Origin: Microcaldota archaeon | Lineage (GTDB): Archaea > Micrarchaeota > Micrarchaeia > Micrarchaeales > Micrarchaeaceae | DNA length: 15,604 nucleotides | Direction of reading: 5' to 3' | Assembly: GCA_021834785.1 (NCBI GenBank) | Contig: JAKBRJ010000015.1 | Location: 1-15,604 of the forward strand | In this document: piece by piece, positions 9,619-13,682 of the stretch | How the letters are laid out: each line of letters starts with the position of its first letter | Position numbering within the stretch: the stretch's first letter is position 1 | The notes under the pieces: model-generated | Seen by the model: the letters and a program-made list of their open reading frames with translations, nothing else | The model's database searches: none | What the model was told of the DNA's origin: nothing | Made by a program: the position numbers and the translations under genes

Positions 9619-10896
9619 TTACTTAGGGACTGCAGGTACGACATCAAGTATGACGCCAGCACCGACAGTTTCTCCCATATCCCTTATCGCAAACCTTCCC
9701 AATTGCGGGAATTCGCTGTACTTCTCCAAAGCTATAGGCTTTGTTGGTTTTATTTTTACTATAGCTATGTCGCCGGTCTTTATGGTTTCCGGATTCTTCT
9801 CCAGAGTTTGGCCAGTCTTTGGATCCTTCTTCTCAAGTATATCGGTTATAGTGCATGCCAACTGTGCCGTATGTATGTGGAACACAGGAGTATATCCTTT
9901 GGCTATCACGTTCTGGTGGTGCAAAACTATTACCTGCGCAGTGAATTCTGCAGCTACCATTGGCGGGTTGCTTGTAGGGCCTATGACATCGCCGCGCTTT
10001 ATGTCCTTCCTGTCCACACCTTTGATGTTGAAGCCTACGTTGTCTCCAGGCTCTGCCTTCTGCAGCTGCTGGTGGTGCATCTCGATGCTCTTGATTTCAG
10101 TCTTTACGCCGCTTGGCATTATTATTACAGAGTCTCCAGGTTTCATTACTCCTGTTTCTACCCTGCCTACAGGTACTGTTCCAAAGCCGGATATGCTGTA
10201 TACGTCCTGTATTGGCAACCTAAGAGGTTTGTCTGTAGGCTTTACAGGCACAGTCAAAAGATCCAATGCTTGCAGAAGCGTTGGCCCGTTATACCATGGC
10301 ATCTTTTCTGGCTTCTTTGATATGTTGCTTCCTTCGTAAGCAGAATAGGGCACAACATTTATGGCATCTACATTCCTGTAGCCCAATGATTTCAAAAGGT
10401 CTGTTGCAGCTTTCTTTGCAGTCTCGAATTTAGATTGCTCAAAATTTGCAGCGTCCATCTTGTTTACGCCTACAATTATCTGGCCTATGCCCAGCACGTT
10501 TGCCAATATGGCATGCTCTCTCGTTTGCGACTGCACTCCATCGACTGCGCTTACAACAAGAACCGCGGCATCCGCTTGGCTTGCTCCGGTAATCATGTTC
10601 TTTACGAAGTCCCTGTGCCCTGGTGCATCTATGATTGTGAAATAGTACTTAGGGGTCTGAAAATCCCTGTGCATTATGTCTATGGTTATTCCTCTCTCTC
10701 GCTCCTCCTTCAGCTGATCCATTACGAATGCAAATTCGAACGTTGATCTGTTAAGCTGCTGTGTAATTTCCTTGTATCTAGCCAGATCCCTGTCCGTCAC
10801 TGCTCCAGTTTCGTAAAGCAATCTGCCTACAGTCGTTGATTTTCCGTGGTCAACGTGTCCTATAAAGATTAGGTTCAGATGTGGTTTTTCTGCCAT
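9619..10896 (-). CDS. tuf: Translation elongation factor EF-1A (EF-Tu family)
   Basis: EF-1A delivers aminoacyl-tRNA to the ribosomal A site as a GTP complex. From ATG 10896 it has 425 residues, normal for archaea. GTPase motifs: G1 GHVDHGKS (13-20), the switch-I signature ERERGITID (65-73), G3 DAPGH (90-94), G4 NKMD (145-148), and the SA-type G5 further on. They are followed by the beta-barrel domains with [11 protein letters not shown] and the terminal [21 protein letters not shown] nine bases upstream opens the frame, but it is part of the Shine-Dalgarno AAGGTGA (10908-10902) that sits 6 nt before the ATG. The classical upstream str partners (uS12, uS7, EF-2) are absent; a divergent plus-strand region begins instead. 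Confidence 0.97.
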
Positions 10897-11023: not shown

Positions 11024-11037
11024 GCAACGAAAGTTGC
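11024..11037. repeat. Short hairpin with a GNRA tetraloop
   Basis: GCAAC (11024-11028), GAAA, GTTGC (11033-11037): a perfect 5-bp stem closed on the plus strand by a GNRA tetraloop. It lies between the EF-1A promoter and the rightward genes, outside any ORF. It could be part of a small RNA or leader, or chance. Confidence 0.3.
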
Positions 11038-11085: not shown

Positions 11086-11101
11086 GAAGGGGTGCCGCAT
11101 T

Positions 11102-11248
11102 ATGCTGGCTGGCAGCCGCAAAAAAAGCAGCTTCTTGCGCGCATGGAATGCTTGTTTTGCAACTGCCTGGGATATGCATAAGGCAAAATGGATTTTTCAG
11201 AAAAGTTTTTATATATATTTGTATTTGTTATATAGCTTTAAGGAGTGA
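11102..11248 (+). CDS. Possible 48-residue basic/hydrophobic peptide
   Basis: ATG 11102 is preceded by GGGGTG (core GGTG at 11091-11094) with 7 nt between, close to the spacing of real genes here. It opens 48 codons to TGA 11246-11248. The peptide is basic at the N-terminus (GSRKKSSFLRAW) and aromatic/hydrophobic at the C-terminus (FYIYLYLLYSF), so it could be membrane-associated. Against it: its last third is the A/T-rich promoter of the next gene (TTTTTATATATATTT), which by itself translates into F/Y/I/L, and its stop lies inside the next gene's Shine-Dalgarno. I do not recognise it. It may be spurious, or the region may encode an RNA. Confidence 0.25.
   Translation: MLAGSRKKSSFLRAWNACFATAWDMHKAKWIFQKSFYIYLYLLYSFKE
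11206..11220 (+). promoter_or_regulatory. Strong TATA box of the polyacidic microprotein gene
   Basis: TTTTTATATATATTT is centred about 26 nt before the expected transcript start near 11239. That leaves a leader of about 14 nt carrying AAGGAGTGAT (11240-11249), the best Shine-Dalgarno in the window. Confidence 0.6.
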
Positions 11249-11252
11249 TACC

Positions 11253-11336
11253 ATGGCAAAAGATGAGGAAGAAGACGACGAAGAGGAAGAAGAGGAAGAA
11301 GACGACGAAGAGGAAGAAGACGACGAAGAGGAGTAA
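11253..11336 (+). CDS. Polyacidic 27-residue microprotein
   Basis: After MAK the peptide consists only of Asp and Glu: 17 Glu and 7 Asp, 24 acidic residues of 27. It ends at TAA. It is too short for a fold and must be disordered and very negatively charged (about -23). Evidence that it is expressed: a strong TATA box at 11206-11220, a near-consensus Shine-Dalgarno (GGAGTGAT, with ATACC and ATG after GTG), and a hairpin plus T-tracts behind it, so it looks like a complete single-gene unit. The coding DNA contains three copies of a 21-bp unit. Function is unknown. By analogy, acidic tails bind basic proteins such as ribosomal proteins or histones, or mimic nucleic acid. It lies upstream of cdc48 but appears to be transcribed separately. 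Confidence 0.6.
   Translation: MAKDEEEDDEEEEEEEDDEEEEDDEEE
11265..11330 (+). repeat. Three copies of a 21-bp purine-rich unit inside the microprotein gene
   Basis: The unit beginning GAGGAAGAAGACGACGAAGA (plus a final G) occurs at 11265-11285, 11292-11312 and 11310-11330. The last two overlap by one codon. All copies are in the same frame and encode EEEDDEE. Confidence 0.75.
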
Positions 11337-11373: not shown

Positions 11374-11407
11374 ATTTTTTGTTTTTAATATAAGATTCTT
11401 ATTTTTT
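11374..11407 (+). terminator. U-tracts plus hairpin after the microprotein gene
   Basis: TTTTTTGTTTTT (about 11375-11386) is followed by the dyad ATAAGATTCTTAT (11390-11402) and TTTTTT (11402-11407). This is a likely terminator about 40-70 nt past the stop codon and 70 bp before the cdc48 promoter. Confidence 0.5.
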
Positions 11408-11471
11408 AATTTCGCCTTTCTGTTAAGGTATGTTATTTATAACTTTCAATTTAAAACTACTAAATGTAACT

Positions 11472-11525: not shown

Positions 11526-13682
11526 TTGGTTAATGGGATTGAACTTACGACTACGGGTGCGCTTGTCACAGATGACGGTAGGGGCATAGCAAGGATAGAT
11601 TCAAAGGCCAGGAAGTTGCTGAACCTCACTTCAGGAGACATAATAGAGATGAAGGGCAAGCGCAGATCCACTGCGGCAATAGCCCTGCCAGCACACCAGC
11701 AGGATGAAGGGCTGGATTTTATAAGGATAGACGGATGGACAAGAGAGAGCCTCGGAGTAGGAATAGGGGATAAGGTATTTGTAACAAAAGCAGAGGTCAA
11801 CAACGCAGAAAAGGTAGTACTTGCACCACCCCAGAATCAGCGAACGCCCATATCTCCAGATTTCGCAGGATATGCGAAAAACAAGCTTGAAAACCATCCG
11901 CTGGTGAAAGGGGATGTGGTTCCGGTCCCGATGTTCGGATATGTCTTTAGGTTTGTTGTTGCGCAGATTGTGCCCCATGGCGTGGTTAGGGTAACGCAGA
12001 ACACTGAGATAGTAGTAAAGACTGAACCGGTATCCGAATCAATGATACGCATAGGCGACGTCCATTACGAGGACATTGGAGGGCTGAAGAACGAGATGCA
12101 GAAGATACGGGAGATGGTAGAACTGCCGATAAGGTACCCAGAGCTTTTCGAGAGATTGGGCATAGAACCGCCTAAAGGCGTGCTTCTGTTCGGGGCGCCA
12201 GGCACTGGCAAGACATTGCTGGCGAAGGCAGTAGCAAACGAGAGCGATGCCAATTTCATAGACATATCAGGCCCAGAACTGGTGAGCAAGTTCGTCGGAG
12301 AAAGCGAGGAGAGGCTGAGAAGCATATTCGTAGAGGCTAAGGAGAAGGCGCCAACAATAATATTCATGGATGAGATAGACGCCATAGCGCCTAAAAGGGA
12401 GGAGGCAACCAACGAAGTGGAAAGGAGAATGGTATCCCAGTTGCTTACGCTCATGGATGGAATGGCTTCAAGGGGCCAGGTCATAGTCATAGGGGCTACG
12501 AACAGGCAGAATGCAATAGACCCTGCACTTAGAAGACCGGGCAGGTTCGACAGAGAGATAGAGATAGGAGTGCCAGACAGGAATGCCAGGAAGGAGATAT
12601 TGCAGATACATACCAGGAACATGCCTTTGGCGAATGATGTAAGCGTAGAGGAGCTTGCTGACATAACGCACGGATATACTGGCGCAGACATAACGGCATT
12701 GGCTAGGGAAGCCGCAATGGCATCGCTCAGGAAGATACTTCCACAGGTATTGAACAAAAGGTCTGTGCCTAACGAATTGCTCATGAGCCTTGAGGTAACC
12801 AAAGGGGATTTCGTTGATGCATTTAACACAGTACAACCAAGCGCGCTCCGCGAGGTATTTGTAGAGAGGCCAAACCTGCACTGGAGCGACGTAGGAGGAC
12901 TAGATGATATTAAATCGCAGTTGAAAGAGGCTGTTGAATTACCCATAAAAAAGCCCGAGACATTCGAAAAGATGGGCATACGCCCGATAAGAGGAGTATT
13001 GCTTGTAGGGCCCCCAGGGACAGGAAAAACGATGCTGGCGAAGGCAGTAGCTACAGAAAGAGAATCGAATTTCATATCCATAAAAGGTCCTGAATTCCTG
13101 AGCAAATACGTTGGCGAAAGCGAGAAGGCCGTGCGCGAGGTCTTTAGGAAGGCTAAGATGGCCGCGCCGTGCATAATATTCATAGATGAAATAGATTCTG
13201 TTGCATACGCTAGGAGCGGCGATTCTTCGGACTCGATGGTCACAGAGAGGATTGTAGACACCCTGCTTACCGAAATGGATGGGCTGCAGGACCTTAAGAA
13301 TGTTATAGTCATAGCTGCAACCAACAGGCCAGACATAATGGATCCTGCACTCCTCAGGCCGGGCAGGTTCGACAAGATAATAGAGATACCTATGCCAGAT
13401 ATGGAGACAAGGAAGGCGATACTTAAGGTGCATACGAAGCGCATGCCATTGGCTAAAGATGTAGATATCGAGGAAGTGGCAAAGGCAACAGAAGGATACA
13501 CGGGCGCAGAACTGGAGAACATCTGCAGGGAGGCAGGCATGAGCGCGATAAGGAAGGAGAAGGAGACAGTATCAAGGAGCGATTTCGAAAACGCGCTCAA
13601 TGAGGTAAAACCTTCGGTGCCTAAGGAGCTTGCTGAAAGAATAAAGAGGTTCAAGGACGAACCTGAGAGCATGTACAGGTAA
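11526..13682 (+). CDS. cdc48: Cdc48/VCP-type double AAA+ ATPase
   Basis: This is the archaeal homologue of p97/VCP/VAT, a hexameric unfoldase that threads proteins and can feed the 20S proteasome. From TTG 11526 it has 718 residues: a double-psi barrel N-domain (about 1-180), D1 with Walker A GAPGTGKT (223-230) and Walker B MDEID (281-285), and D2 with Walker A GPPGTGKT (495-502) and Walker B IDEID (553-557). The RRPGRFDREIEI and LRPGRFDKIIEI segments carry the arginine fingers. The frame is open back to an ATG at 11430, but those 32 residues resemble no Cdc48 and lie upstream of the TATA box. GGTG sits 6 nt before the TTG. The protein ends in M-Y-R, an HbYX-type C-terminus like those that dock into proteasome alpha-ring pockets. 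It is followed by eS6 after 62 bp. Confidence 0.95.
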   Translation: MVNGIELTTTGALVTDDGRGIARIDSKARKLLNLTSGDIIEMKGKRRSTAAIALPAHQQDEGLDFIRIDGWTRESLGVGIGDKVFVTKAEVNNAEKVVLAPPQNQRTPISPDFAGYAKNKLENHPLVKGDVVPVPMFGYVFRFVVAQIVPHGVVRVTQNTEIVVKTEPVSESMIRIGDVHYEDIGGLKNEMQKIREMVELPIRYPELFERLGIEPPKGVLLFGAPGTGKTLLAKAVANESDANFIDISGPELVSKFVGESEERLRSIFVEAKEKAPTIIFMDEIDAIAPKREEATNEVERRMVSQLLTLMDGMASRGQVIVIGATNRQNAIDPALRRPGRFDREIEIGVPDRNARKEILQIHTRNMPLANDVSVEELADITHGYTGADITALAREAAMASLRKILPQVLNKRSVPNELLMSLEVTKGDFVDAFNTVQPSALREVFVERPNLHWSDVGGLDDIKSQLKEAVELPIKKPETFEKMGIRPIRGVLLVGPPGTGKTMLAKAVATERESNFISIKGPEFLSKYVGESEKAVREVFRKAKMAAPCIIFIDEIDSVAYARSGDSSDSMVTERIVDTLLTEMDGLQDLKNVIVIAATNRPDIMDPALLRPGRFDKIIEIPMPDMETRKAILKVHTKRMPLAKDVDIEEVAKATEGYTGAELENICREAGMSAIRKEKETVSRSDFENALNEVKPSVPKELAERIKRFKDEPESMYR

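Follow-up and report, generated by a model that had tools for sequence, protein, structure and literature searches.

Can a gene that specifies almost nothing but aspartate and glutamate be a gene at all and, if it can, what would such a peptide do? In the window (by which we mean the whole stretch of 15,604 nucleotides analysed here), translation of positions 11253-11336 gives MAKDEEEDDEEEEEEEDDEEEEDDEEE and a stop codon, that is, Met-Ala-Lys followed by 24 Asp or Glu residues, exactly the 27-residue product that the original prediction had described, and no other ORF in the window reaches 10 Asp or Glu in any 20 residues. Its neighbours in the window are EF-1alpha, cdc48, S6e (an assignment made 2 bits under its cut-off), aIF2gamma, an NDP-kinase-like ORF and archaeal IF-2. 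We argue that this ORF is almost certainly a real gene, judging from its sequence and those of its relatives, and we put at roughly 0.48 the probability that it is transcribed on its own and encodes a soluble, disordered polyanion with about 25 acidic residues, in effect a detached acidic tail working in trans. The argument turns on the following features.

9619-10896, minus strand: EF-1alpha, the divergent upstream neighbour, its start provisionally taken as ATG
11200-11213, plus strand: BRE/TATA promoter element GAAAAGTTTTTATA (family consensus GAAAGGTATTTATA), starting 53 nt before the ATG
11242-11249, plus strand: Shine-Dalgarno-like GGAGTGAT (GGTGTGAT or GGTGAT in near relatives)
11253-11336, plus strand: polyacidic microprotein gene, 27 aa, of which 24 are Asp or Glu
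11375-11386, plus strand: T-tract, a probable archaeal terminator (T-tracts also occur in relatives)
11526-13682, plus strand: cdc48, the downstream neighbour, its start taken as TTG 11526

The TATA box that had been claimed is present as the element at 11200-11213, and with a promoter element of its own the gene does look autonomous. The Shine-Dalgarno had been called the best in the window, for which we see no support: among ten starts compared, the longest exact match to the anti-Shine-Dalgarno complement is 5 nt for the acidic gene vs 6 nt for cdc48, S6e and EF-1alpha. A downstream hairpin with T-tracts had also been proposed, of which the T-tracts stand and the hairpin finds no support (the RNA fold has z = +0.88, and 163 of 200 shuffles fold equally well). 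The RNA of the acidic ORF likewise folds no better than shuffles, and Rfam gave no match in the window. As to cdc48, its listed ORF opens at 11430; homology in most relatives begins near codon 26-35, and for this reason we place the likely start at TTG 11526, behind a GGTGAT.

Two things stand apart from the gene itself. Between EF-1alpha and the acidic gene lies a hairpin, GCAACGAAAGTTGC (11024-11037), with a T-rich tail; its block is kept in the relatives G001 and G002 and altered in G003, whereas the stretch at about 11090-11185 is almost wholly different among the three, and the hairpin is possibly a small RNA or a regulatory site. A sigma-70 promoter scan of the window was set aside, since it does not apply to archaea.

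How widely does such a gene occur? The acidic ORF turned up in 57 genomes from 24 genera, and every one of these belongs to a single Micrarchaeota family, f1, which holds Ca. Micrarchaeum. The survey used six-frame scans beside cdc48 and, in part of the genomes, beside EF-1alpha too, with thresholds of 11-13 Asp/Glu per 20 residues or, in one scan, 50% Asp/Glu; a copy beside EF-1alpha in G084, cut by a contig end, was left out of the 57. Start codons were chosen by a script with a preference for starts behind a GGTG/GGAG-like motif (nine were assigned manually), and the presence of that motif in 47 of the 57 is partly circular and is for that reason not used here as evidence. In close relatives the reading frame has not been lost; the closest genome compared, G001, has 77% of sampled 31-mers in common with the window.

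Cdc48 itself was matched in 41 of 41 relatives searched (in G007 and G025 only by a weaker AAA match) and at E <= 1e-250 in 65 of 85 f1 genomes. In 53 of the 57 bearers the acidic gene comes right before cdc48 and on its strand, the place at which the original prediction had proposed to look in related genomes. These 53 comprise 52 of the 65 cdc48 genomes and G010, where the cdc48 match is split; the 52 are 51 by position and G022, in which the gene and cdc48 sit at the ends of two contigs with an identical overlap of 126 bases and which we count as adjacent. Of the other 13 cdc48 genomes, four have the gene beside EF-1alpha and G084 has its cut copy there; at the loci scanned, the remaining 8 showed none, namely G016, G060 and G061 (genus g14), G050, G072, G079, G085 and G073, so it may be dispensable there or have moved. 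The stretches upstream of both cdc48 and EF-1alpha were read in G016, G061, G050 and G072; G079 offers only 165 nt upstream of EF-1alpha, and in G073 cdc48 itself is cut.

Outside f1, the loci of cdc48 or EF-1alpha supplied 57 control stretches, about 174 kb in all, and no acidic ORF appeared in them at a threshold of 11 Asp/Glu in 20 residues, or 10 in 20 for 12 of the stretches. The controls were the cdc48 loci of 29 genomes of the sister family f2 and of 24 genomes of other families, together with four f2 EF-1alpha loci; two stretches (L133 and L150) leave less than 100 nt before cdc48 and are weak tests. For f1 and controls alike, the scans covered the cdc48 and EF-1alpha neighbourhoods rather than whole genomes.

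What, then, has been kept among the 57? The members are 27-46 aa long. They open with a head of 2-19 aa in which Lys, Met, Ala, Pro, Ile and Leu are abundant, and continue with a tail of 24-36 aa, 83% of it Asp/Glu. Every member has at least one Lys or Arg (in the head for 50 of them), and these residues number 95 in heads vs 19 in tails. The acidic count, over 56 distinct sequences, is 24.8 ± 2.4, with a range of 20-34 and all but one at 20-29; the outlier and most charged member is L100 (from G044, genus g33), with 34 acidic residues in 41 aa. That count holds steady while the D:E ratio spans 0.2 to 6.7, which fits selection on charge. An alignment of 21 members (A1) has no invariant column, and the order of residues is not conserved. 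Between members of a genus, 14 pairs (not independent, since several share a genome) differ at codon positions 1, 2 and 3 by 29, 33 and 139 changes over 460 codons, and since GAN always encodes Asp or Glu, such a bias to third positions matches selection on charge and not on the residue. Codon choice differs from that of the neighbouring genes, with GAC making up 0.79 of Asp codons vs 0.68 and GAA 0.66 of Glu codons vs 0.31. In the sequences compared, in other words, gene, frame, promoter element and charge count are conserved, and residue order is not.

The acidic stretch is a tandem repeat, and one could imagine that slippage in a GA-rich repeat had thrown up a spurious ORF. We consider this very improbable, for slippage would have to leave promoter element, open frame and charge in place across 24 genera, with changes gathered at third positions and nothing comparable in the control stretches; chance, too, is an unlikely origin for the ORF.

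If charge is the main thing conserved, and the promoter element is close to consensus, might the peptide be simply an abundant polycarboxylate that buffers Mg2+, Ca2+, iron or other cations in cells that are often acidophilic? Several related records presumably come from acid-mine sites, which would suit such a role. Bulk buffering, however, should need neither a narrow charge count nor a kept head, and we regard it as improbable, though less so than slippage.

The case for separate transcription is carried by a 14-nt BRE/TATA motif, GAAAGGTATTTATA, which starts a median of 64 nt before the start codon. With a gene's own genus left out of training, the motif scores at least 10 bits in 93% of the 57 acidic genes, vs 19% of 52 EF-1alpha upstreams, 18% of 90 cdc48 upstreams and 0.4% of shuffles, a comparison that measures likeness to the motif and not promoter strength, because the motif was learned on acidic-gene promoters. 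For G001 the leave-genus-out score is 18.2, and its upstream sequence is identical at the window's BRE/TATA element. Training on EF-1alpha upstreams instead gave a motif without a TATA box, which was not used further; on it the medians were 5.8 for acidic promoters, 6.2 for cdc48 and 4.1 for shuffles. Downstream, a T-tract (8 nt with 7 or more T, no further than 90 nt from the stop) follows the acidic gene in 44 of 57 genomes vs 31% of mononucleotide shuffles. If the gene is highly expressed, as had been proposed, it is the promoter sequence that suggests so. For Ca. Micrarchaeum harzensis A_DKE, passages of one paper state, citing unpublished data, that hypothetical genes make up 60% of the 10 highest-expressed (PMC8623467), and 12 of the 15 matching passages of a transcriptome paper do not name the polyacidic gene (PMC8975820). 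The latter also describes A_DKE in stable co-culture, which would make the expression and partners of the acidic gene testable; in this organism the gene lies at L033:5406-5501 (NZ_CP060530.1). The window's own peptide, with one Lys and no Arg, would probably escape tryptic proteomics.

A short acidic ORF that lies 87-593 nt before cdc48 (50 genomes measured) invites another thought. Could it be a leader acting in cis, whose consecutive acidic codons pause or drop ribosomes, by intrinsic ribosome destabilisation of the kind known for MgtL, and so set the expression of cdc48? Early acidic residues do destabilise bacterial ribosomes (PMC11282234), and a separate cdc48 promoter beats 95% of shuffles in only 17 of the 50 intergenic regions; in G001, where 42.5% of shuffles do as well as the cdc48 promoter, there is no clear separate promoter, so read-through into cdc48 is possible. 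Against a leader, the bond to cdc48 is not strict, for in four of the 57 genomes (G008, G017, G019 and G093) the gene lies beside EF-1alpha and away from cdc48. In G017, G019 and G093, the three with enough flank, the next ORF is convergent, on the opposite strand, and in the two tested with Pfam it encodes an Hjc resolvase (G017) and an amino-acid kinase (G019), leaving no obvious downstream target for a leader there. The four genomes argue for a product that acts in trans and against a cdc48 leader peptide. The T-tracts after the gene in 44 of the 57 likewise speak against a leader, and the charge count would seem to be held far beyond the few residues that a pause needs. The leader fails for those four genomes and may still apply where cdc48 follows; taken over the whole family, we think it unlikely.

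Somewhat less unlikely, though still doubtful, is a role beside Cdc48 in trans. That is, the peptide might be a cofactor of the Cdc48 pathway like eukaryotic Dss1/Sem1, a tiny, acidic and disordered helper of substrate recognition by Cdc48 or the proteasome. Synteny is closer with cdc48 (53 of 57) than with EF-1alpha, from which the gene lies within 900 nt in 27 of 57 genomes (flanks often being short), and from this one might infer a Cdc48 link instead. Dss1 uses hydrophobic residues with acidic neighbours to bind ubiquitin (PMC4232310), and the tails of 40 of the 57 members have aromatic residues; proteasome-family genes, moreover, are present in 41 of 41 genomes searched. Thirteen members, however, have no aromatic residue, all those of the window's genus among them. 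No match to DSS1_SEM1 (which we take to be PF05160) was found at E <= 1 in the 21 of the 57 members scanned, the only Pfam match being ANAPC15 at E 0.014 in one member. The spacing described for disordered ubiquitin binding in PMC9381478, aromatic-X2/3-aromatic in an acidic context, occurs in none of the 57. To this one must add the four genomes in which the gene is away from cdc48 and the presence of Cdc48 and proteasome genes in f2, where the gene is not seen at cdc48.

We come back, then, to a polyanion that works in trans as a detached acidic tail. For a peptide kept mainly by its charge the best explanation, we think, is a polyanion that is a rival of nucleic acids for basic proteins. The chaperone or modulator role suggested in the original prediction is likewise a proposal. 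Its charge would be enough to attach the peptide to ribosomal proteins or to basic binders of nucleic acids (candidates are histones, Alba and free ribosomal proteins), to prevent their aggregation or contact with the wrong RNA or DNA, and then to hand them over to their true nucleic-acid target, while the short head, usually with Lys or Arg and often with hydrophobic residues too, may give a weak docking contact. It seems to us quite possible, if less probable than the general reading, that a near-fixed set of about 25 negative charges is the chief conserved property of the family and that the peptide is a nucleic-acid mimic or chaperone acting in trans on chromatin or ribosomal proteins. There are precedents: Asp/Glu repeats attached to DNA-binding domains work through electrostatic competition, and when tethered to HMGB1 or a homeodomain they modulate DNA target search (PMC10250230); for poly-D/E proteins, DAXX among them, a chaperone role is discussed in PMC9896144. 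Possible basic partners are at hand: of 41 genomes searched, all have a histone fold (PF00808) and 40 have Alba. Since both are about equally common in f2, whose examined loci showed no such gene, the distribution of the gene is not explained by them.

The loci hold one further observation on Alba: among 25 f1 genomes searched, 11 have it no more than about 5 kb from cdc48, a count that contig breaks may have lowered. In G008 it is about 2 kb from EF-1alpha, and none of 16 f2 genomes has such an arrangement.

Why should so small a gene matter? Acidic tails have mostly been studied as parts of larger eukaryotic proteins, and a free, promoter-driven tail kept by its charge in archaea with reduced genomes would, if the reading is true, be among the simplest natural polyanionic chaperones. 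The family would also show that homology search overlooks genes so short and of such low complexity. When 12 genomes were searched at the protein level the peptide was found in none, although nine carry the gene (G001, G008, G009, G010, G011, G015, G017, G019 and G022), which means that this search says nothing about absence, and a large protein set compared with a 41-aa member gave 588 candidates, none at E <= 1. In the literature, by title and abstract, we found no description of a polyacidic family of this kind, which is no proof of absence.

How does the peptide compare with what is known? Its run of acidic residues resembles the D/E-repeat tails of HMGB1, UBF1 and similar proteins (PMC10250230), disordered runs of about 24-30 Asp/Glu (the peptide is presumably disordered as well); unlike those tails, which are tethered to DNA-binding domains and act in cis, the tail here is nearly the whole protein. 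With the poly-D/E chaperones DAXX and nucleophosmin it shares a poly-acidic tract, which in their case binds basic or misfolded clients, but these are larger eukaryotic proteins with folded domains. ANP32A is another chaperone of the poly-D/E kind. Like the MgtL-type leaders, the gene is a short acidic ORF before a larger one, but it has its own promoter element and many more acidic residues, and in 4 of 57 genomes it is away from cdc48, where a leader of this type would be expected 5' of the regulated gene in every bearer. There is also Dss1/Sem1, a tiny, acidic, disordered and free protein to which the genomic link with cdc48 adds a further likeness, from which the present family differs in having no such Pfam match (21 members), no ubiquitin-binding spacing (57) and, in 13 of its 57 members, no aromatic residues at all.
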